Source of the DNA: Glandiceps talaboti
Taxonomy: Eukaryota > Hemichordata > Enteropneusta > Spengelidae
DNA length: 64,000 bases
Assembly (NCBI RefSeq): GCF_964340395.1
Contig: NC_135555.1
Location: 12,653,746-12,717,745, forward strand
Direction of reading: 5' to 3'
Part shown: piece by piece, positions 15,499-34,209 of the stretch
Position numbering within the stretch: position 1 is the stretch's first letter
How the letters are laid out: each line of letters begins with the position of its first letter
Made by a program: the position numbers and the translations under genes
Notes under the pieces: model-generated
What the model saw: the letters and a program-made list of their open reading frames with translations, nothing else
Databases searched by the model: none
Told to the model about the DNA's origin: nothing

Positions 15499-17035
15499 TA
15501 TAAATCTTGGTGAAAACAGTATGCCCAAAATTTTGGAATGTTACACTATCATAAGATACACTGCTGTACTATGAGAAAGACAAGTGTGGAAATGAATGTG
15601 AAGGAGAAACTGAATGGCATGTGTGTGTATCATGTGAATGTTTCTGAATATGGAGCTAGGACAAGATGCTGATAGAACAGATAGGTGCTATGTTGGAACA
15701 AGCAGACAGTTGTCACTGTGCTAGTCATGCAGGTATTGAAATGGACAAATTCAGACATTGTAATATCAAGTCTGAAATTATGACCAGATCTAGATAGACA
15801 TTGCCAGGTTGGAATAGATACAGGGTAGGGTCTTTTTTCAAAGCTCCTCAATCGGTGTCTGTAATGCATTATTGTGCGAGTACAATGATTTGTACATAGA
15901 AGCTGAAACTTATATTTCCCAGTCTTATGATGAAAAGGAATGAACTAGGACCAATCACACATGTCACGCAAATTAACTTAAGTGCACATAGCTTGTATAT
16001 TTATTTCAGAAATAAATAAAGTGATTTTTTTTTTACAAAACGGCAGTGTATTTGCATCTTATTTACAAGTATTCTTAAACATAAATGAGGCAGTGTGAAA
16101 GGAAGAATGACTACATGGTAGACAGTGTTCTGATTACTTTCAGAGAATAAAATTGTGTAATACATGATACGTTTTCAATTCACCTTTTGGTACCATGGCT
16201 GAGAGGGTTGTATTTACATAGTCCAATGTTAGCACCAAAACAGTAAGTAGGTTAAAATAATGCTTTCCCTCTTAAAGCCTATTTAAATGTACAAGAAAAT
16301 GTCTAAATGGTACCAGAAGTCAATCGTACTATTACTACAGTTCAAATACTTTATCCGGAGTTCTGATGTACTGATTAGCAGTTGTTTGCCAATGTGTATA
16401 CAAGACTGTATTTTGGTTTATTTTAGAGTATTGGGTTCAATCAAATTTTGTTATGGTCAGTCCTGAAATTTATATGAATCATACCAGACAACAATTTGCA
16501 AATTATTAATGTCTTGCATCAAACGGTACTTGTAATTTAAAACGTGAATGTTTCATGTGCATTGTCACATTAAAATGTTTATGGTCATGTTGACTTTGAA
16601 TCAAACTCTGAAATAGCCCACTGAGGTTTGGAACTAGTTGACAATTCAAACTGTTTTTGGACTAACTTACACTTGCAGCAAAAGATCACAACTGGTTGCA
16701 CCTTATGTTGCAAGATTACAACGCAAGACAATTGTCAGAAAAAAGATTTGAGGCTGAACTCTGGAAGCAATGAAAGTGATTCGACCAACACTAAATATAA
16801 AACATCACTCACTTTGAAAATCAAACGATTTTGAAATCTGGGTCAAGAAAAATAGTGTGAAGATGTTACAACTGTGTTGATCTAATAAATGATTTAATAT
16901 CAACATTAACTTCTCTCAAAGCAGCTCAGTATCTGATTGCATCCCAATATTATGTCATGAGTGAAGCCAGGAAGTAATTGTGGTGGCTGTTCCTGTATAT
17001 TTCTTGACCTAACAATGGGATTAAGTTGTCTGTAT
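15499..17035. other. Tail-to-tail intergenic region, DHODH 3' UTR
   Basis: From the DHODH stop to the end of the CENP-T tail-repeat array I see no further coding exon. DHODH poly(A) signals lie at 16011-16020. Beyond these I found only unique AT-rich DNA up to the repeat array. Confidence 0.6.
16011..16020 (+). terminator. Poly(A) signals of DHODH
   Basis: Two overlapping AATAAA hexamers (16011-16016, 16015-16020) lie about 510 bp after the DHODH stop and are followed within 20 bp by a T-rich stretch. This is the likely cleavage region. Confidence 0.7.
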
Positions 17036-17426
17036 TCCAGATCTACTGATGGGAATTAGTCTGTATTTCAACTGGTTAACTTATTTTGGCTTCAAATTGG
17101 TTCCAGTACATTTCCAGACCTAGCTGTGGGATGAGGCTGTTGCCTGTATTCCAGTGGTTTATTTTGGCAGTGGTTCCAGAATATTGAAGACTATATACCC
17201 GTGGTATATTTTGGCAGTGGTTCCAGTACCTTTCCAGATCTACCTATGCCAGTATATATTGTTGCCAGTATTCCAGTGTGTTATTTTGGCTTTGGTTCCA
17301 GTACATTTCCAGACCTAGCTATTGGAATAAGTTGTTGCCTGCATTCCATTTGGTTATTTTGGTTTTGGTTCCAGTACATTTCCAGACCTAGCTATTGGAA
17401 TAAAGTGTTTCCTTAATTCCAATGGG
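17036..17426 (-). repeat. Tandem copies of the CENP-T C-terminal coding segment past the stop codon
   Basis: Directly after the CENP-T stop, the segment coding the last 22 residues plus stop repeats on the same strand. Copies anchored at the LEYRQ codons start at + strand positions 17491 (the real one), 17418, 17345 and 17272, exactly 73 bp apart. More degenerate copies follow near 17150, 17066 and 17036. Copy 2 would read PLELRKHFIPIARSGNVLEP then KPK and stop; copy 3 reads QMECRQQLIPIARSGNV then LEPKPK and stop. Later copies carry an in-frame stop or lose the frame. A period of 73 is not a multiple of three, so readthrough would not join them in frame. An AATAAA on the minus strand in the fifth copy (17158-17163) could end the mRNA, placing copies 2-4 in the 3' UTR. 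Confidence 0.92.
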
Positions 17427-20063
17427 TTATTTTGGTTTTGGTTCCAGTACATTTCCAGACCTAGCTATTGGAATAAGTTGTTGCCTGTATTCCAATGGAA
17501 GATGCCTTTGAATCAAACTATCCAAACTCTGGTTGTCTGTAACAATTCGTTGCCTACAAGGAGAAATAAATGAAGTTATTTACTAGCAACTTGATGACTG
17601 TTTATAGAGTATCTAACTCTCATTTCCAAACTATTACTTTCTGATTATCACTCATCGTTGTTGGTGATCCATACTGCTGTTATAGTGTACCCACAATGAT
17701 GGATCCTTCCCTCTAAGTTAACTTTGTTCAGAAAAGTATATAATACCTTCTCATCAGCAACTCAAAGTCAGCTTGAGTAACTATCTTTCTGCCAGCATGT
17801 TTGCTGTAAGCACTCACACTAGAATACATTCTTCTCAGGAATCTTTCCGAACTGAAATGAAATAGAAAAAAATAGTGGCACTTATATTTACCGGTTGATT
17901 TATTCAGTAGTAACGTACTCGCTTTGCAATCTTTGACCAAATCATTTTCATCTCTAGCTTTATAACATTGATCAGATCACCTTGCCTTAAACAATTTATC
18001 ATCTAGACACTCCTAGGAACATCCCAACCAAATATCAAACAAATCGGCTTTATACTTTCCACCCAAAAATCAAATTGTAGGTCTTATGGGTATATCAGCC
18101 TAATTAATTGGTCATTTCTTGGAAAATACACCTACAAATATCCAAACCAAATTTTAGACCAACTTCCCTAGCAGTTTGAAAGTTAACTCTTCAGACCAAA
18201 AATAAAATTTTAAGACAGGTAACTACATATCAACAACATTTGCTTATATTTGGGTCATCTTGTCTTGAATACTACTCCTTTACATGTAAGACATCCCTGG
18301 CAATACACTATCATCAAATTTCTGACCAATCTGCCAAAATAGTGGAATATTGTTTCTAGATAATCAACACCGTTCTTCTTCTCTCAACATCTAGTAATCA
18401 CAACATTTGTAACTACTAACACAATTTATAGTGTTTTACATGCTCGGAACAGTTGGAAAGTTTAACAGAAAGTCTTGTTCTAGAAGCAAAATAATGGCTA
18501 CAAATTATGTGATGAAAGAAAAATTGCATTATGTGCACCAGTTGTGAAGACGTTGTGTACAATGAAAGACAACCACTTGTGCTTGTGTAACACTGTAAGT
18601 TGACAACATCGACAGGCCACAATAAGTTATCAACACATTGTGATATTTGAATTGTAACTAACCCATCCGATAATGTGATTTGTACCATGAAATAGTCCAG
18701 TGCTTGACATGACAGTAGTCAATAAGGAACTGGCCATATCTTTTGCCAATGAAAGATAGTTTGCAATGTTTGACCAACAGATAAGATTACATTATTTGTA
18801 CAATCTTGTAAGACAGACTTTGCCCAGAAGGACTTTGTCCTGCCTTCCCAATCACAGAAACCATAATCAAGCCACCGTGTCCCCGTTGGGTCAACAAGAT
18901 TTCGAGGAAGCGTAAGTCGATAAAGTAAAATACTATACTATTACTAGAGAAAGTCAAGACTGATGAAATTCGTATCTTCACTTTATGAATACCTTTTCAC
19001 TTTTGGTAACAAAACTCAAGCCTTGTACATTGCTAACTTCGTCAATGAAATTTAGTAATACCTGTCTAATAAATCTCAAAGAGTACAATGAGCAATAGAC
19101 AACACTGATCAGTACAGTGGAAATGCATGTAGTGAATGGACTGACAAACTTTGTTGGCAGAAAATGACTCAAAACATTACAATTCAGAGAAATACTGAAA
19201 GCTGGAAAGAGGAAAACACGGAAAGTTTCAAATTTAAGTATGGAGTAACAACAGCCACGTTTTACAAAAATGATTTATGTTTATATTAGGCCAAATAAAA
19301 AAAATTGTGTTTCTGATAACCCGACCGACACTAGTTTAAGCCTCCGACATCCTAAACATTTTAAAAACATTTCAAACAAAAAGATTTTACTGTAAAAAAA
19401 TTGTCTTCTTCACCTTTATTTTCTTTCTCTAGTGATGTCTGTACATATTTTATCAAACTGTCACAGAAGGGGTACTCTGACCGCCATTTTGTTTGTTTTT
19501 GGGTCAGGGTAATGTTTCAAAAATAAAAAAATAAAATAAAATAGAGTAAAATCCTGAGCTACCTACCCTATTTTCTAAGGCCATGTTATCGGAAACAAAC
19601 AATTTTTTCCCACCTTATTTACTGCAAGGGTTTAGGTGAAAATACTCCTACTAGGACTGAATCTTTACAACAACTCTACAAATGCTTGAAGTGTGATGCC
19701 AGACTTCCAGCGAAATCATATATTATAGTAGGAAAGTTTCTACCTCATGGTAATATGTTACAGCAAGCAGTTGTACAATCACACGTGTGACCCTGTCTAG
19801 GAAATAAAGATGTTGCTTGGCAAAGAATAAAGTCTTTACAGAGCGTAAGTGGCACTGTTAGTGTTAGATTATAATTGAGGCATGCAAACAAAAACTTAAT
19901 TTACTGGAACATAAGTACACCTGTATCTTTTGTGATCTCATCAAACATGGCTTAAACAATTTGTAACACAAAAGTTCAAGTCTAGCTCCATAACCCTGGT
20001 CATTTGTACAGAGAGAATTAAGAATCAAATTAAGAATTCTACACAATACGGTGAATACCATTT

Positions 20064-23100: not shown

Positions 23101-26100
23101 AATCTGATGAAAATCTAGTCTGTAGGGTACACTGTGACAGGGTGCTCTCACACATCAGTCAACCACTGGGTGAGAGGAGGATGGTGAGGGCAGAAAGACA
23201 TGACATATCTTACAGTCTAATGAAAATAATGACATGTATTAATTTTATTTATTCATTATAACATTCCAGGTTTTCCACTTTCTGGGTTTGGAATATTCCA
23301 CTCGGAGAGAAGCACAGTATTTCAATTGGTCGCAAAATATAACTACTCAATTTGTGTTGATTTTACCAATATTTCAAATATGGACATATAGATGATTTGA
23401 ATTTTGATAAAGTTGTTAATCAATTACATTCAAAATTTATTTATACAGTTAAGTCGGAATGAGAGGTGTAAAACGGAACACAAAATACATGATAATTATT
23501 TAGAACAAGCCTTTGTCATTTCCCCCATTTTGCCATAAAGGTTAAGGTTGCATGCACATATAACATATAGTGTTGTTATATGTGCCAGGTTTGGCTCAAA
23601 TTGAATCATGGGTGTCTGAGATATGGCTGTCTATAGAATAATAGATAGATGGAAAGACTGACAGGGATGGGTCATTCCCTTATTCCAATTTGGGCATTGC
23701 ACATTTGGGGCTAATACCAGTCAAACAGCAACGCTTTTTTTTATCTTGCTTTGTTGACAGTGAAGTTATTTAAGTCCAGACACATTGTATGTATGGTGTT
23801 TTATACAATCTTGTATGTATTTGCTGTCTGTATTTCAGGATATTTCATGACAACATCTACATTTTTGTAATCAGACTCCAGTAGCGATGGAAACAAGTAC
23901 CACGGCATCATCATCACCAGCGAAAGTCTTCCTGTGGTCTGCTCCTAGAAGTTTGAGTACTGCTTTTGAAAGATGTGTGTTAAATTTGCCTGATGTAAAG
24001 GCTTTCGTTGAGCCTTACGTCAGGGCTGCACACTTTGGACCCATGGAGGAGAGATTTAGAGGATATACTACTTTTCCAGCTAATCCAGAAGTTTCGTACC
24101 AGCAAACGAAAACAAACCTAGAAGATGCATTCCCCGGTAAAAAGATAGTATTCGTCAAAGATATACCTCTATATGTAATTGATCATGTAGATAAACTCCC
24201 CGTGGGATTTCGTCATTCATTTCTCATACGCCATCCAGCAAAGATTATATTGTCTTATGACAAGGGTTGTCAAAAAATCAAGAAGATGGGATATCCTTAC
24301 TATGACGAATTCCGTGCAGACTTGATGGGAATAAAAGAGTTGTCCTATCTGTATAACTACCTTGTGAAGGAGAAAATAGAATGCGACCCTGTTATCGTGG
24401 ATGCTGACGATTTACAGCGTAATCCAGCTATGGTGATGAAGAAATACTGCAAATCTGTTGGTATTCCCTACAACGAATCCATGCTTACTTGGAAACAAGA
24501 TATTCCAGAGAAGATTAAGGAAGAGATGGCATGGATATTTCCATTGGAAGTGTGGCATGGTAGAGTTTTATCTAGTAATGGTCTTCACCCATCTTGTCCT
24601 TCTGATGGAGATGATATTGACGTCACAGTCTATCCTGAAGACATACAACTTGCAATTCGCGAATGTATGCCATTTTATCAGCAATTATATGAGCATCGTT
24701 TGCGGTAATCGGTTGTTTATGGTTGAGATGAGCACTACAATTTTGTGCATATATCATTTTTAAAATAAAAATTCAAAGAATATGAAATTTATACTTTCCA
24801 AGAGACTACTATACAATGGACATTTTTTTTGTTTTAAATCTGGTCCGAGTGTCAGCTAGAGTGTAATGTGAGATATTGAAGATTGCTTGGGGTGGCAGAA
24901 GTCAGTGAAGCTGGGTAACCGAGACTAGACTGAATACAGACCCTATATCTTCTTCCATTTGTACCAAACCCCTTATCTAAATGAATAAACTTATAATTGC
25001 TATGTTTATCATTTACTCTGACATTGTAACTTGCAAATTAACATAACCAACACCACAAAAACATTCAATGGTCTGCTGATGAGGAATAATTTCTTGCCTA
25101 GATCACTTTCTCATGTTTATGCTTGGAATTGGCCATATCTGTTCACAATTTTTTGTTTTTGTTTGCGTTTACTTCCCCACCTCTTTTTTTTTTGGCATAT
25201 ATTTGTTTTTTGGTATTTTTTTCTTTTCCCTACAAGGTGCAATTTAATAAAGTAATTATTTGAAAAGCTGGTGTTGTGGGTTTTTTTCTAAACCAATTTT
25301 AACTTCTTTTGCTGGTTTTAATAAACCAGCTTGACTATTACTACCTTATTAATTATTTACAAGTTAGTTCTACTGAGCGCCCTCAACCTGTGACCATTCA
25401 AAACTGTGACCCTTCCTCATCCCACTCACCATGAGAAGAAGCTCTTCTCTCATATTGCCAATGGGAAATATTATCTGCACCTTCATAATCAAATCTTAAA
25501 GAATCTGTTCCCAACTTGCAAACTGCAGCATGTAGCGATAATAATAGGAATATTACAATAATGGACTTACCCTTTGTACACCGACTCCATTGCTTGTGGA
25601 TTGACTCGGAGTCTTGAGTGAAAGGAAAATATATTTTTTGTTAAACTTCTTGGAAGGGTTGTTTTTATTGCTGGCACTTTCCTTCGGAGAGAGACTTTGC
25701 TTGCTTGTTGACTAGAAATCAAGAAAAAAATTGATACCAATGATGAATATTTTCTGATATAGCCAATAGCATGCAAAATATTGTACTCAAACAAAGTGCT
25801 AATGCAATAGGGAACTTGCAATCCAGACTGAGCATGCTCAGACACAAAGGACTATGGGATTATCTGAGGTTATTGTATTACCTAATCTGGAGCTACCAAT
25901 AAAATAAACCTCCCACAATGGTCAGGGTGACTATGAATTGATCATTTGTGGTTACAAACAATATAACAATATTGTTAGTAATACTTATTGGTTAGTACTA
26001 AGTATTTATAATCACATTTCCCATGATGCAACATTCAACATGGCGGGTTTGCAGGTTCCCTATTACTACCTCTAGCACAGACCTATGATAGCACAAGAGC

Positions 26101-29100
26101 CTTTGCTGAACCTTAGTTCAGTTGTGCTAAAAAAAACCCAACATTATATATTGGGTAAACATTGTATTATAGCATAATGTATGTCAATGCATATTTTAGA
26201 TTGGGTCAAAAAACGAAAAGAATTGTTACTGGTCAGGACATTTTGTCTAAAGTGGTGCAACGACGTGGTTTTTCTTTTAAAAATTCTCAACAAACCTGTC
26301 ACTCAGTCTACTATTTAAGGAAGTTACTGTTCCTTTTATTTAGTACTTTAAAGCAAGCGTGTGTGCTTGTTGATAATTGACTCTGCAGTTGTGTTCACTA
26401 AAGTAGGGAGGGATATTTTTTGTGTTTCACCACGGATCTGCAGACTGTATGGTCTGGACAAACACAAAGAAAAGTCCGATGTGACGCACTGACCAGAAAC
26501 ATTTCTTTTTTTTTTTTTGGCCTTAGGCTTCCTTTTTATTTTAACAATTTTAATTCAGAAGCAAAAAAACGATGCAAACACAACAGATCAAGCAAGAAAC
26601 AAGACTGCAACAAAAAGACAAAGAAGTAGGAAAAGGGTGACACTACTCAATATTGAATTAAATTACCTACAGGAAAATTAGATAAAAATGTCTTCTAAAG
26701 ATTAGGTTTCCATTACCTTTTTTGTCTCACTTCAACTTCCACTTCCTCTTCTTCCTAGAAAAGAATAAAGTTCATATCTATCAGTAAATTGGTAAAAAAA
26801 AATTCAAGAAAGTCATGAAACCTTTTTCTTGAAAAAAATCTATTTTTAGTGTTAACTTTGTACACCATACAAACTTATGATCTGTTGGTCAACAACGCCA
26901 TCAAATTACATACACTTTGTATACCATACATATTTGCTATCTGCAGTTCAACAAAGTTGTAGAATTACACACAAAGTTTTGGTACTTAACATACTTTTTA
27001 CCACCTAGGTGCTTCGTAAAAAAAATGATCATTCTATTTCTTTGTCAAACGTGACTTCCACTCCACATGCTTTTACAGGGTTCGTACACTCAAAGCAAAA
27101 CAAAATTCCAGGACTTTCCAGGGGTTTTTCGTCAGTTTTCCAGGGGTATTCATATTGATTTTGGCCATTTTCCAGGGGTGTTGACACTAAAGTATATTTT
27201 TTGAATGACATCTAATTGTCTGATGTGGACAAGAAAAATCAGCAACAGTTCCCATATGTCACAAAAATTTTTAAAGGCAATCGACACTATGCAAGATATT
27301 GGTTTCAAAACCACGTTTACACGCTAAGATTAACGGAGAAACCTCTGTCCCTAAGTAGCCGTTTCGTCAAGCTAGTGCATTGATCGTGTAAGATTGAGTC
27401 GCAGCATTCGTCAGTCTAATTCAGACATATCCACAAAAATAAATCAAAAACTAAAGTTTGTCCTCATTATTGTTTGGTTTGATGTAACTAGATTTATAAG
27501 CCGCCTAAAATAATTTTTTTCTTCAAAATTTTGAATAAAAACGTCATTTACGTAACGAAATTTCGAGCTATGAATAACTGAATACATTCATCGCTTGCGT
27601 CTCGATGTTTATGTACCGATGCCACGAGTTGCGGAACATCGCGATTTCAACTCAACTTGACCATTGACGAATGTTACTGTACCGGCGACAACATAAAACA
27701 GTAGTTTATTCTTTTAGAACATGTAACACAAATACCATTTATCGACAAAATAAAAGTCACAACCGTACTTCCACAACCCGGAAATTCAACTGCACTTCCC
27801 TAGGCCCTAACCCTAGCTTGTAGTATCAGTCGGTGGGCGGTCATTTCGTCCCAAAACCATCTCGTCCCAAACTAACTCGTCCCAATAAAGTTGTTCCCGG
27901 GCTAACTCGTCCCACAACCAACTCGTCCCACCGCCATCTCGTCCCATTCAAAGAATATTCCTGTGTGGTTCATAATTAACTGTAAATAAGCATAATGCAT
28001 GTAGCGTCATATCCCTGTTTGCCGACGGTTTACGGGTCTACGCTACGCTGACTTGAGGATCAAAGGGACGACTAACTCCGTATGCGAAGAGGACTAATGG
28101 CGTCATAGATCATACGTCAAAATTTCTGTCATCGTATTTTTTCATATCAAAGTTCGGAAACATAACTATAAAGTAAGTGTTTGTAATTGCAAAACTTTCG
28201 ACAGATGAAAAGTCACGTTGCCTTCTCGACAGAATCTGCCAAAGTTGCGTCAGTTCACGTTTGTGTTCTGAACGCGTAGCTAAACACAATATTATTAGTG
28301 GTGGGACGAGATGACGGTGGGACGAGTTCGTTTTGGGACGAGTTAGTCGTGGGACGAAATGGCGATGGGACGAGTTCGTTTGGGACGAGTTCGTTTTGGG
28401 ACGAGTTGTCTGGCAACCGTATCAGTCGACTCGTGCGCCGAACTTGTAACAATTTCTAATCGAGGTTGATGATGCTTTGATACTCGCTACAGTGTTACGA
28501 TAATCTTGTTAACAGACCTACTGTACATGTTACCCCGGCCGGGACTGTTACAATATCATGTCCCTGAAATGACGACTGGGAGATGTACGGAGTAGCAATA
28601 TATGCTAGATCGAAAGAAACACTGCGGCGCCCATTCAACTAATACGCACGGTCTGTGGGGCAAAGTGTCTCGTGGAACGATCGCTTGACTGTCTGGGTTC
28701 AATCGGCGTGAATTTTGATTCATCACCCAGCGTGGCGAAAGACTTTGAAAATATTTTCGCGATTTCACATTTACGAGATTCAGAATCATATGAATGGGTG
28801 GCTCGAGCACGGACATGACGATCGTCAATATTAATCGATCGATTGACCATGATCATTTTCCAGGGTTTTCCAGGGGTAGGGCGCATTTTTCCAGGGTTTT
28901 CCAGGGTTTTCCAGGGAGGGTTTGAAATTCCAGGGTTTTCCAGGACCGTGCGAACCCTGTTTTATAGTCTATATATGCTTTACTATATGCTTTACTATAG
29001 GTGAGGCCTCCTTGCTCTATTTTGACACTCTAGCACTAGGTGAAATGCTATTGTAGGTACATGTAACAAGTCTTACCTCCTCATCACTGTCTTCCTCAAT

Positions 29101-32100
29101 CAACTCTTCCATCACCGCCTCCTCCTCCTCCTCCTCTTCCTCCTCCTCATCATCATCATTTTCATCAACACCTTTCTCTATGTTGTTGTCATTGATATAT
29201 TCAGCTTTCTCAGCATCATCAACAGATGGAATGGGTTCACCATGAATTTCAGTGTCTGCTGGCATATCTGCATCTCCACTATGACTGTCAGTGTCTGCTG
29301 GCATATCTGCATCATCTCCACTATGAATGTCAGTGTCTGCTGGCATATCTGCGTCATCTCCACTATGACTGTCAGTGTCTGCTGGCATATCTGCATCATC
29401 TCCACTATGACTGTCAGTGTCTGCTGGCATATCTGCAACGTCATCGTCATGAATGTCAATGTCTGCTTTTGAAAGAGTGGAATCATGATGACCGTCAGTG
29501 TCTACTTGTGAAGGAATATTGTCATCATGAATGTCAGTGTCTTCTGGAGTCTCAGCCACTTCACCCTGAACATCGGTGTCTGCTGATGTCTCAGCCACTT
29601 CACCCTGAACATCGGTGTCTGCTGATGTCTCAGCCACTTCACCCTGAACATCGGTGTCTGCTGATGTCTCAGCCACTTCACCCTGAACATCGGTGTCTGC
29701 TGATGTCTCAGCCACTTCACCCTGAACATCGGTGTCTTCTGATGTCTCATCCACTTCACCCTGAACATCGGTGTCTTCTGATGTCTCAGCCACTTCACCC
29801 TGAACATCGGTGTCTGCTGATGTCTCATCCACTTCACCCTGAACATCGGTGTCTGCTGATGTCTCAGCCACTTCACCCTGAACATCGGTGTCTGCTGATG
29901 TCTCAGCCACTTCACCCTGAACATCGGTGTCTTCTGATGTCTCAGCCACTTCACCCTGAACATCGGTGTCTTCTTGTGTCTCAGGGACTACCCCATCGTT
30001 ATCACTGTCTGCTGGTGTTGGAGCAACTTCATCACTATCTGATACATCATGTGTGATAGTCTCTTTCACTATACGACCAAATGTACCTACAGACATTCTG
30101 TCCTTTCTTCTACGTGTAAACTTTGGAAGGTGATCTGGCCCTGCAGAATCATCCAGTTCATAATACCCAGGAGGTGAATGCCTGCATGAATAATTCACAG
30201 TTCTAAGAGATTAATGTTTAAAATATTTACCTAGATAAGTAACATTAGTTTTAAAATGTGTCTCCACATTTACAGTACTACAACACTGACAGACATTGTG
30301 GAAGTTGTACTAAAATTTAGAGATGATATACAGTAATTATACATTTATTGCCTGGTAATGCAGGCACTAGTAGACATCCATTACCACAAAGGTTGTTATG
30401 CAGAATTAACTGAGGCAGAAAGCTGAGGGAAATTAGTTGCTACATAACAGCATGAGAGGTAACAAGACATCTACTAGTGCCCAAATAAGGCAAGGTAATA
30501 AGTGATTTATAACACATCACATTCTCTGGAAAGTATTCTTTCTAGAGTCAAAGTAAATCATGGGTAGATAGAATTCCTGTGCTATAATAGTGCTCTAGAG
30601 AAAATAGAAAAGGAATATCACCCGCTGTATGCAAATTGAGGTCACTATGTATGGGTCAATAGTCTATACCATGTGATACAATCTAAGCCAATCAATAATG
30701 GTTATGTGAAAATAATGTATTTTAACAGCATTTAATGCCCTGGCAACCTAATCAAGGAAAGGCAGACCACCCATTGTCTGTTTGCTCCTTTGCACTTATT
30801 CATGTTTCGCAATATTGCATTTATGAAGTTATAATTACATTACCCTCCAATGTTTTCATCATTCAGCCTAAACATACTTATGACATATCATTAAGTATTT
30901 TGTCACTACTGGTCTTGGATGGAACGACAAGGCCTGTTAGGTCACTCATACTTTCCTTGGCTGAGTGAAGACATTTTTGGGGGGAACAATAACTTTAATA
31001 TTCAGTTGATATTCACCTGATTGCATTCTGTGTTCTAGTTTTCACACCACTGGCTGCTGTCACATCAACTTGTGTGTCGTCATCATCCTCGTCATCTATC
31101 ATCTTTTCTTGGACAACTTTCCCAAATGTTCCCACAGACATTCTCTGTTCTTTTCGTCGCTTGAACTTAGGGGGTTCTCTTGTGTCAAAAGAGTCATTAT
31201 CTTGATCAGAATTGACAGTTTCTCTGCATGAAATAATATGAAAACATTGAACGGCTGTTTTGCATGACACTGCTAGACTTGTTACAATAGCAAACATATT
31301 GATGGCGAGATTTAAATGTTTTATGAATTTCTACAACCCCTAACATTGAAGTAAAGCACTTTTGTATGCATCACTCATTTATGGGTGTTTGTATCAAATG
31401 TAAAAGTATATGCTTTCAATAGGGAACTTGCAAACCTGCCATGTTGAATGTTGCATTATGGGAAATGTGACGATAAATACTAATTGATTAGTATTGTAAA
31501 CAATGTTGATACATTGTTTGTAACCACAAATAATCAATTCATAGTTACCCTGACCATTGTGGGAGGTTTATTTTATCAGTAGCTCCAGATTAGGTACATG
31601 TATTACGATAACCACAGATAATCCCATAGTCCTTTGCGTCTGAGCATGCTCAGTCTGGATTGCAAGTTCCCTATTGCTTTCATATCATAAACCTGGTTTG
31701 TGGCCTTACCAACATACCAGTAGTCATGTTATAAACAGTATTTTCTGGTAATGAACAGCCAACTGATTACAGTGAAGGATGTCATGTGACTATATTTAGC
31801 TCTCAATCTAGATCTAGACAATGTTTTACATTTTAGCAATTGACTGTTTACTTCCTTTGCACTGCTAAGATTGTTTACAGATTTTATTACACTGGGAGAC
31901 ACCCCATACTGGGCTATAATTGAAATAGTATACCTTTACCATTGATATGGATGCATTTAAATATTATGGAAAATCAAGTAAATGTTTTACTTGAGTGTTA
32001 TGAGTAACAGAGTTGTATTTTATTCATGAAGTGTCAACAAATCTTGCTGACTCCTGTTATCTGCCATGTTGCCATGAAAATGACACTCGGTAAGGTATGG

Positions 32101-34209
32101 AATGGTGAAATAAATGTCACCATTTCATAGCTAACTCTTTACAGCAAACTCTAAAAAAAACATTGCTGAGCCCTGTCACACCAATTAGGGGCATGATACT
32201 CACTAATTTTGTGCAATATTTCTATTAACATACATGTAAAACATCAAGGGCTTTCACTTTATCAGGGAATACTGAACCGATCCCTGATACATCACAGGGT
32301 ATAGTACATATAAACAATAACTATTATCATATACACAGAATCTATTCCAATGCAATGCAATGGAGAGCACGCACATTGAACCGGGGCAATAATTTTCTGT
32401 ATCACAGCCCGGCACACTTTGCCCAAATATGGCAAGTGGCACTCTCATCGATATCCATTCGCTCAGTGGTTTGGCTTTGTTAATTTCTTCACTATTGTTA
32501 CGTTTCTGAGAATAAAATAATATTTCAGTGCCAATTTATGTGATTGTGTCATTCAAATTATGTTTTCATGCAACTACATGTTGTATATGACAAAACTCGG
32601 TAGTACTGCATAAGGACCCTCCTAAAGTCGGGCCCTTCTGCCATACAACCTCAGTCTGCAAAACCCATATCCAGGCCATAAAGATTAACAGTACCTGACA
32701 GTATCCATCTGTGGAACATCTTTCGCAAGTTGTACATCTGGTAACTTTGGAGATGCCTTTCGTTTTCTTGGTATGTACACCGCAGGTGTTCCTGGTGGTG
32801 CTGAGAACAAAAAAAAATGACACACTTAAAGTCAGGTTAAAAATCAAAGTCCAAACCGGAACATAACCATACAACAACCAAATTCAAGTTTAATATGTTT
32901 GAAATATTTTTATAGCAAATTTTGGGGACATACTTGTCCATGCCATGTAAACTGTGAAAGCACAGATTTTCTCTCTACTTGAAATCACAGTAAAACGTCA
33001 ATTAGTGCACCTAATGATATTCCGAAACATCAAATGAGAAAAGGGCTTGGCTTTAATACACATAGTACCAATAACAGGCAAATATTAACAATAATCTTGT
33101 AACAAACAGGGAAAGTAAACAGAGGATTGGGTTTAGTAACACTTGGCATAGCAAGTTGGAGTTTGATATGCATTACATTCCATCATTTGATAAGAGGACT
33201 TGGATGGCATCTTTACATAATACTGGTAGCTCACATTCACAAACAAAGTTAAAGTCCCCAAGTATTTCATATACATATGAGGCCATAAAACTTCCTATCA
33301 AACTATGAAACATAATATTCTGTAGTTCAGACATACCTTTGCACTAAAATGTTATGAGCCAATTCACTTACTTTCCCTGTTTGTAACAAATTCTGCTTGT
33401 TACTGCTTGCCTGTCGCTAGTTGTAGTACAGTGACGTTTTATTTTTACCTCAAAATAGAGAGTACCACAGTTTTAAGATTCTTAAGACTTACCATGTTGT
33501 AAAAAACCTTTTATTAAAGTCTTTGGTGTTGGTCTACTAGTGTCTTCTGTCAAAATGGACTGTGGTATCTTCTTGCTTGCACTTCTAGTAAGTCGTCTTT
33601 GCAGAGGTATCTTTTTAGCCGAGGGTTGATCCACTGGTTTTGGTTGAGGAGATGAAAGCCTGGTTACCCTCTTACTTTTAGGAGGTAACTTCACTGTTTC
33701 TGCATTTTGAAGAAAACCTCTGATCTATATGATGAGAATAGAGGAAAGATTTTAATAGAATAACAAATAATGGCAATGGTATCATTTTAAGTTGGACATA
33801 CAATTCAAAATAATATGAATTCATAATGACAAATACCACTACTTCTAATTCATAGTTAGTACAAATTAACTACCGGGTAGTGATAAATCTTGATTCCATG
33901 AATGTGATAATGGGACATGTTCATGGTTGCTTACAAGTTTCCTTTTGTCATCCATCTGCACTCTATCATGTTACAATATAGCAAATCAATTTCGATTTGG
34001 ACTCTTAATCTCGTATTTCTGCACCACTTGACTGAGATTGAATGGAGTCACACTGACCAAACATATCTGACCCTGTATTCAAGTCAAAGTTTCCTCAGAT
34101 TACATGCATTTGTCACATCACTGCCAATTGAATTACACATGTAGGTGTCACTCACCAGAGTCTTAGGAGTTTCTGCTGGAGCTGACAGTTTACTACTTCT
34201 TCGAGACAT
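17427..34209 (-). CDS. CENPT: Centromere protein T (CENP-T), histone-fold inner kinetochore protein
   Basis: Links centromeric DNA (with CENP-W/S/X) to the Ndc80 and Mis12 complexes. Ten coding exons join in phase to 704 residues: 34156-34209, 33493-33724, 32695-32800, 31017-31223, 29077-30181, 26717-26754, 25571-25711, 17747-17851, 17427-17553, with a 5' UTR exon proposed upstream (nine listed are coding). N-terminus: two TPKTLI(R/K)GFLQ motifs at T14 and T84, matching the CDK-phosphorylated Ndc80-binding sites of vertebrates. Two RxxRMSVGTFG motifs at about 159 and 229. Then acidic 13- and 14-residue repeats, an acidic run, and at about 595-690 the histone fold (LPRSLTKNIFSFH, AYSKHAGRKIV, DFELLMRR) followed by the CENP-T tail HLPLEYRQQLIPIARSGNV. 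The middle is clearly disordered. The acceptor before the start ATG lies at 34228-34229. Confidence 0.95.
17990..18360. repeat. Diverged tandem repeat in CENP-T intron
   Basis: Three similar modules of about 120-150 bp, each with a form of CCAAACCAAATTTTAGACCA followed by a C-rich stretch. A related motif (CACCAAATATCGAAGAATTC) lies at 22510-22560. Likely transposon debris. Confidence 0.45.
20066..20146. repeat. (AC)n microsatellite
   Basis: About 80 bp of perfect AC, followed by a more complex AC/GC-rich tract up to 20240. The cysteine-valine frames here are artefacts. Confidence 0.98.
20394..22681. mobile_element. Candidate 2.3-kb element with 12-bp inverted termini
   Basis: TAGCTCCGCTGT at 20394-20405 recurs inverted at 22670-22681. 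Between them lies an internal inverted repeat (20868-20956 against 21328-21408) containing CCATACGTTACAGTGGTAAC. No transposase frame is visible and no target duplication was found, so the boundaries are tentative. Confidence 0.4.
23116..23220. mobile_element. Small MITE of the TAGWCTGTAAG family (copy 2)
   Basis: Starts TAGTCTGTAGGGTACACTGT and ends GACATATCTTACAGTCTA. The interior has CACACATCAGTCAACCACTG. Its palindromic ends match the other copies. Confidence 0.7.
23887..24708 (+). CDS. Sulfotransferase-like P-loop protein, intronless, nested in CENP-T intron
   Basis: A single open frame of 273 residues. Near the N-terminus VFLWSAPRSLSTAFERC (14-30) fits the 5'-phosphosulfate loop of PAPS sulfotransferases. 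FLIRHPAKIILSY (112-124) fits the 3'-phosphate motif (Arg and Ser). This family is often labelled branched-chain-aminotransferase-like in invertebrate databases but has no aminotransferase fold. No signal peptide or membrane segment is evident. The substrate is unknown; the core suggests sulfonate transfer from PAPS. It lies on the strand opposite to its host gene. A splice-acceptor-like TTTCAG at 23833-23838 hints at an upstream 5' UTR exon, and AATAAA follows at 24764-24769. Intact frame and complete motifs argue for a live gene, possibly of retrocopy origin. Confidence 0.88.
   Translation: METSTTASSSPAKVFLWSAPRSLSTAFERCVLNLPDVKAFVEPYVRAAHFGPMEERFRGYTTFPANPEVSYQQTKTNLEDAFPGKKIVFVKDIPLYVIDHVDKLPVGFRHSFLIRHPAKIILSYDKGCQKIKKMGYPYYDEFRADLMGIKELSYLYNYLVKEKIECDPVIVDADDLQRNPAMVMKKYCKSVGIPYNESMLTWKQDIPEKIKEEMAWIFPLEVWHGRVLSSNGLHPSCPSDGDDIDVTVYPEDIQLAIRECMPFYQQLYEHRLR
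24764..24769 (+). terminator. Poly(A) signal of the nested sulfotransferase-like gene
   Basis: AATAAA lies 56 bp after the stop codon, followed by T-rich DNA at 24820-24840. Confidence 0.6.
25807..26063. mobile_element. hAT-like MITE, copy A
   Basis: 257 bp bounded by ATAGGGAACTTGCAA and the inverse of ATAGGGAACCTGCAA. It matches, in inverted orientation, the copy at 31419-31674 along its whole length (shared GAGCATGCTCAG, CCTCCCACAATGGTCAGGGT, TTTCCCATGATGCAACATTC). The target duplication has decayed. Confidence 0.85.
26215..26515 (+). mobile_element. MITE-like repeat, copy A (inverse copy at 45180-45530)
   Basis: About 300 bp, bounded by CTGGTCAGGACA and its inverse CTGACCAGAAA. The interior (GACATTTTGTCTAAAGTGGT, TTTATTTAGTACTTTA, CTCTGCAGTTGT, ATCTGCAGACTG) matches the reverse complement of 45180-45530 closely. 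Non-coding. Confidence 0.8.
27076..28959. mobile_element. DNA transposon remnant with CAGGGTTCG termini
   Basis: Left end CAGGGTTCGTACACTC and inverted right end CAGGGTTCGCACGGTC. Both are followed inside by repeated TTTTCCAGGG-type motifs. Such ends are common in hAT-type elements of aquatic animals. TTTTA flanks both ends, too short to settle the class. No transposase is visible, and a second element is inserted inside at 27832-28418. It sits in the CENP-T intron between the exons at 26717-26754 and 29077-30181. Confidence 0.75.
27832..28418. mobile_element. Nested element with TCGTCCCA subterminal repeats and 9-bp target duplication
   Basis: 587 bp flanked by GTATCAGTC on both sides (27823-27831 and 28419-28427), a perfect 9-bp duplication. 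Ends are GGTGGGCGGTCATTTCGTCC and, inverted, GGTTGCCAGACAACTCGTCC. Each end carries five to seven copies of CTCGTCCCA in inverted orientation relative to the other end. Nine-base duplications are typical of Mutator-like elements, so that class is suggested but not proven. Confidence 0.85.
29250..29437 (-). repeat. In-frame 42-bp coding minisatellite in CENP-T
   Basis: Five units code ADMPADTDSHSGDD or close variants in the disordered middle of CENP-T (about residues 450-520). One unit is shortened in frame and one lacks three bases. The frame is kept throughout. Confidence 0.92.
29538..29985 (-). repeat. In-frame 39-bp coding minisatellite in CENP-T, about 11 units
   Basis: Eleven units of 13 residues, consensus AETSADTDVQGEV with A/D at position 1 and A/E at position 5, plus a partial unit. 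The array forms about residues 266-410 of CENP-T. Neighbouring units are nearly identical, indicating recent expansion or homogenisation. The long plus-strand frame over it is a shadow. Confidence 0.95.
30348..30493. mobile_element. Foldback MITE, about 146 bp
   Basis: Left arm 30348-30385 and right arm 30458-30493 are imperfect inverted repeats sharing TTGCCT, GGCACTAGTAGA and TTACC. It lies in the CENP-T intron between exons 29077-30181 and 31017-31223 and is non-coding. Confidence 0.75.
31419..31674. mobile_element. hAT-like MITE, copy B, intact 8-bp target duplication
   Basis: 256 bp bounded by ATAGGGAACTTGCAA and its inverse, flanked on both sides by TGCTTTCA (31411-31418, 31675-31682). 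An 8-bp duplication fits the hAT superfamily. It is the inverted counterpart of 25807-26063. Confidence 0.9.

Follow-up and report, generated by a model that had tools for sequence, protein, structure and literature searches.

Behind the stop codon of a kinetochore gene in Glandiceps talaboti lie repeats of that gene's own coding end, and the question is whether they act on the gene or are merely carried along with it. The original prediction had left two choices for these copies, passengers in the untranslated region (UTR) or a reservoir for gene conversion of the C-terminus. The analyses below were conducted on a 64,000-nucleotide stretch (the window) and on the assembly from which it comes. 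Very probably, the array is an ordinary decaying minisatellite that was seeded by tandem duplication of the CENP-T exon tail and is now probably 3'-UTR passenger DNA.

Identity of the gene

The gene is CENP-T. Its two last exons, when joined, match the Pfam family PF15511 (CENP-T_C) with an E value of 2.9e-21 (76 bits against a cut-off of 28.1), a cut-off under which the last exon alone falls at 25.9 bits. The PDB matches of the joined exons are chicken and human CENP-T chains (3vh5, 3b0c, 7qoo, 28op), with chicken CENP-T at E 6.7e-23, and these alignments stop at most two residues from the chain ends. The last coding exon (17553-17427, minus strand; acceptor AG at 17555-17554) translates in full as QRIVTDNQSLDSLIQRHLPLEYRQQLIPIARSGNVLEPKPK-stop. 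The penultimate exon (17747..17851, minus), encoding SERFLRRMYSSVSAYSKHAGRKIVTQADFELLMR, lies in an ORF that itself matches Pfam CENP-T_C at E 1.8e-8, and its frame runs on into the last exon unbroken across the junction. The C-terminus had earlier been given as ...GNVLE-stop, from which PKPK had been dropped; the protein ends ...GNVLEPKPK-stop (...HLPLEYRQQLIPIARSGNVLEPKPK-stop).

By eye, the first exon of the gene is probably one with an ATG near 34200, and TPKTL-type motifs come after it. Near this likely N-terminus, TPKTL followed by IRGFLQ or IKGFLQ was seen by eye twice (34206-34147 and 33722-33490, minus), with one of the two motifs split by an intron. We take these motifs to resemble the N-terminal outer-kinetochore binding motif of CENP-T. 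None of three upstream ORFs submitted to Pfam was matched. Two exon-like ORFs that lie apart on the CENP-T strand (minus; ~31172-31120 and ~30114-30075) each contain RRK followed by RMSVGTFG, a pair of motifs that we liken to a duplicated docking motif, its function being presumed from that resemblance.

The same strand carries an ORF (29020-30210, minus) with two in-frame minisatellites of 42 and 39 bp (29238-29467 and 29537-29984), which encode DVQGEVAETSADT-type repeats, DTDVQGEV occurring 11 times; they probably belong to the acidic linker of CENP-T. The tail-to-tail neighbor of the gene is represented by dihydroorotate dehydrogenase exons (PF01180; 13797-15027, plus strand). The window also holds an inverted repeat pair, 25804-25950 (plus) and 31677-31525 (minus), with 91.5% identity over 153 aligned bases.

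Structure of the array

The predicted tandem array is real. Tandem Repeats Finder (TRF) reports period 73, 4.0 copies, and 86% matches with a score of 405 at 17207-17498, whereas among 500 sequences generated from a first-order Markov model of the 2 kb around it, three contained an array of period 20 or more, with a top score of 61. The unit begins with the L of LEYRQ and ends 4 bases beyond the stop, bounds that agree with those first proposed; its length of 73 bp, as had been remarked, is not divisible by three. Behind the coding copy (c0; 17423..17495, minus, stop TAA included) lie two near-perfect copies and five broken ones, which together make an array of ~0.5 kb and reach ~16975, beyond the distal limit of 17036 that had been set before.

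All copies lie on the minus strand. The first two, c1 (17350..17422) and c2 (17277..17349), are identical to c0 at 67/73 and 69/73 positions. They are followed by c3 (17202..17276; 58/75 against c0), in which a 2-base insertion accompanies loss of the frame, and by c4 (17155..17201), a 47-bp remnant whose end is similar to the end of c3. The first part of c5 (17076..17154) matches c0 at 51/58 positions, the last 29 bp of that stretch being identical, and is followed by a 5-base insertion. The truncated c6 (17036..17071, boundaries by eye) overlaps c7 at a common CTGGA; c7 itself (16975..17040, end by eye), the most distal recognizable copy, reads LEYRQ-LNPIVRSRNIQEQPPQ with the stop lost and is recovered by blastn within the window at 79.6% over 54 bp (E 3.6e-4). 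In-frame readings are LEYRQQPHPTARSGNVLEPI for c5, LKYR--LIPISRSG for c6, and LEYRQ-LNPIVRSRN for c7.

Several regularities first ascribed to the array hold for its near end only. The exact 73-bp period applies to start-to-start spacings from c0 through c1 and c2 to c3; beyond c3 the spacings become 75, 47, ~83, and ~31 bp (the last two from boundaries set by eye), because c3 contains the 2-base insertion, c4 is a remnant, and c6 is truncated. An in-frame TAA is retained at the end of c1 and c2, but c3 has TAT and c7 TTA at that place, c6 ends before it, and the insertion in c5 creates an earlier in-frame TGA, so not every copy keeps its own stop. The early copies are indeed nearly identical and the later ones decayed, but without a smooth gradient. 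In codon columns, identity to c0 is 61/66 for c1, 63/66 for c2, 49/57 for c3, 58/66 for c5, 28/36 for c6, and 48/63 for c7, counted with c4 omitted, three codons of c3 masked, the 5-base insert of c5 removed, and part of c6 absent. The copies are thus not a simple age ladder, c2 being closer to c0 than c1 is and c5 closer than c3.

Because assemblies are known to go wrong in tandem arrays, a repeat falsely expanded in assembly might be suspected. We consider this extremely improbable: every copy from c1 to c7 has substitutions or indels of its own, which would not arise if reads had been falsely duplicated, and the array is only ~0.5 kb long.

The array is local and not a dispersed repeat, a single locus among the best candidates scored. 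A peptide search of the 590-Mb assembly at E up to 10 gave five matches among the best candidates scored, all at this locus (the two exons, c1, c2, and c5). DNA searches of the same assembly (best candidates scored, very common words skipped) gave 1 and 4 matches, again all here, and no further copies of the unit were found elsewhere in the window. Imperfect copies arranged head to tail in a local array (period 73, 4.0 copies plus remnants) place the CENP-T tail repeats among minisatellites, which have units of ~10-100 bp.

Substitutions and ancestry of the copies

Of 19 residues of the c0 unit aligned with chicken CENP-T, 13 agree (hand count), including L1, Y3, and L7, which are replaced in c1/c2; the gene is therefore the source of the repeats and not their product. 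All five coding-part differences of c1 from c0 are replacements, as are two of the three in c2. Silent and replacement differences were counted over 22 codons in six repeats (c1, c2, c3, c5, c6, and c7), with c4 omitted and c3 and c6 partly masked. Differences private to a single copy comprise 6 silent and 22 replacement changes (22/28), close to the outcome of unconstrained change (expected silent share 0.23-0.29). Of the differences common to at least two copies, 5 are silent and 3 are replacements (Fisher P = 0.040 against private), a contrast that depends on 8 common sites in a hand alignment and is accordingly a small sample. Without the doubtfully aligned tail of c7, the ratios become 5:2 for common and 5:20 for private differences (P = 0.019).

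The clearest common silent states are AGA for AGG (c6, c7), CCC for CCA (c5, c6, c7), and G as the third base of the AAA codon, which is AAG in c2 and c5 and CTG in c3. We read the common silent states as possible old states of the conserved exon, preserved in cast-off copies. If this reading is right, the array has kept a small natural archive of the silent changes that a conserved kinetochore gene went through. Some sites conflict with any single order of copies: c3 and c6 are alike at columns 32 and 36, and at column 1 c6 has T against C in c3, c5, and c7.

A protein-coding role for the copies was considered and rejected. By eye, no acceptor-like tract precedes a copy; the frame of c3 is lost, c4 is a remnant, and the private changes are dominated by replacements. 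Constraint on c5, c6, and c7, which are in frame, was likewise set aside, since silent substitutions in the coding lineage can account for their silent:replacement counts against c0 (4:4, 5:3, and 6:10).

Possible exchange with the coding copy

The differences are not evenly spread along the units. Over 52 bp (permutation P = 0.002), c0 and c1 are identical, and five changes lie clustered within the adjoining 12 bp; identical runs against c0 reach 51 bp in c2 (P = 0.03) and 29 bp in c5 (P = 0.04). This pattern suggests patchy exchange or crossovers within units, with a direction that is not readable from one assembly. Since the identical runs are longer than independent point mutation would leave, it is likely that copies have exchanged sequence to some extent, the coding copy possibly among them. 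Mosaics of identical and diverged tracts are common in minisatellites. A hairpin-templated origin of the change cluster in c1 was examined by eye from predicted folds and discarded, as the arms do not match the templating prediction.

Such tracts raise the alternative that the array is a gene-conversion partner of the coding tail, which it would homogenize, or by which it would pass variants into the CENP-T C-terminus. In addition to the long tracts shared by c0 with c1, c2, and c5 beside diverged ones, a silent A at codon column 60 is common to c0 and c1, where c2, c3, and c5 have G; c1 as a young duplicate, however, explains this A equally well. The coding unit, moreover, retains chicken-like residues at L1, Y3, and L7, the very places replaced in c1 and c2, which leaves the originally proposed reservoir unsupported. 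Transfer into the coding copy is invisible in one assembly because differences are counted against that copy. Overall, we regard a conversion partnership as unlikely. A wider version, in which the CENP-T tail and the downstream copies exchange so as to homogenize or diversify an essential kinetochore interface, in a gene that seemingly also has in-frame coding minisatellites, appears distinctly unlikely. Exchange with the coding copy, if true, would matter more than the passenger reading.

The array behind the stop codon

The copies behind the stop probably lie in the 3' UTR. Of the two roles originally offered, that of UTR passengers is the better supported, given the replacement-rich c1 and c2, the lost frame of c3, the remnant c4, and a unit present at this locus only (best candidates scored).

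The first canonical poly(A) signal behind the stop, a candidate AATAAA (17158..17163, minus), is inside c4, and the next poly(A)-like signal, a candidate ATTAAA (16893..16898, minus), is behind the array. Through the candidate signal in c4, the array may affect the position of the mRNA end. This placement, together with AATAAC, one base off, in c0, c1, and c2, could speak for the array as a 3'-UTR regulatory element, for example, a poly(A) signal or a series of repeated protein-binding sites. Yet the canonical hexamer occurs in a single copy, a second signal follows the array, and the changes in the copies mostly look unconstrained. Unusual RNA folding is also absent: compared with shuffles, the whole array folds no better (z = -1.29), and c0, c1, c2, c3, and c5 taken singly are unremarkable (z = -1.54 to +1.20). 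A regulatory element is, on balance, very unlikely. The same folding results led us to reject a role through RNA structure. A bacterial promoter and terminator scan, inapplicable to a eukaryotic gene, found 2 promoter-like sites against 2.9 expected and 0 terminators.

Minisatellite abundance and the origin of the array

Arrays of this general kind are abundant in the genome. The same assembly was sampled at fixed steps in 18 stretches of 10 kb (180 kb). There, strict limits (period at least 40, at least 3 copies, score at least 200) returned 12 arrays, which cover 4.6% of the sample and occur in 8 of the 18 stretches. Looser limits on the same stretches gave 16 arrays (5.1%) or 33 (6.4%), and the window by strict limits has 6 arrays (2.7%). 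Two of the sampled arrays, L016:3352-4211 and L016:5768-6617, lie ~1.5 kb apart with common periods of 30, 52, and 74 bp, and are perhaps one duplicated array.

Scaled to 590 Mb, the strict density corresponds to ~39,000 arrays. If these were scattered at random over a genome assumed to have 20,000 genes, hundreds of stop codons would fall inside arrays, a figure that selection would lower. With arrays so abundant, one that straddles some stop codon is expected, and no special cause is needed. The view that one conserved protein motif was captured as a minisatellite is thus correct as anatomy but calls for no particular explanation. The lesson is one of base rates: where minisatellites take up ~5% of the sampled sequence, it is inevitable that some arrays lie across gene ends.

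The ordinary minisatellite favored here would have arisen as follows. The 73 bp that reach from the LEYRQ codons to just beyond the stop would have been duplicated in tandem through replication slippage or unequal exchange, and further copies would have been added by the same process. Coding constraint would keep the coding copy intact; the units behind the stop would decay free of that constraint, presumably as neutral sequence, and become rearranged and partly homogenized as minisatellites are. The array needs no function to account for its existence.

Comparison with known systems

The conserved C-terminus of CENP-T ends with the residues that the amplified codons encode; judging from position, these residues would correspond to the end of the histone-fold extension. 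In yeast, according to PMC7641736, the two C-terminal helices of this extension bind and pack against Cenp-K. If contact is made as in yeast, it would explain why c0 is conserved; it is silent on the copies. An in-frame supply to the extension is possible from the coding copy only, the other copies being behind the stop. The literature searched (titles and abstract openings, mostly outside subscription journals) contained no earlier report of a CENP-T tail minisatellite, and the accessible part of PMC12678787, on insect CENP-T, adds nothing on repeats.

The array is a new instance of a known phenomenon, the minisatellite at a gene end. The variable-number tandem repeat (VNTR) of CEL lies in frame within the coding part. 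In the portions of the two reports available, SLC6A3 has a 40-bp VNTR in its 3' UTR (PMC8502797) and CEL a VNTR in its last exon (PMC12185230). As far as these portions describe them, both resemble the CENP-T array in that the units run head to tail, at one locus and at a gene's 3' end, the CENP-T copies being imperfect. Within the same bounds, the CENP-T array differs from both in that its unit carries a conserved coding end together with the stop and has a length that is not a multiple of three.
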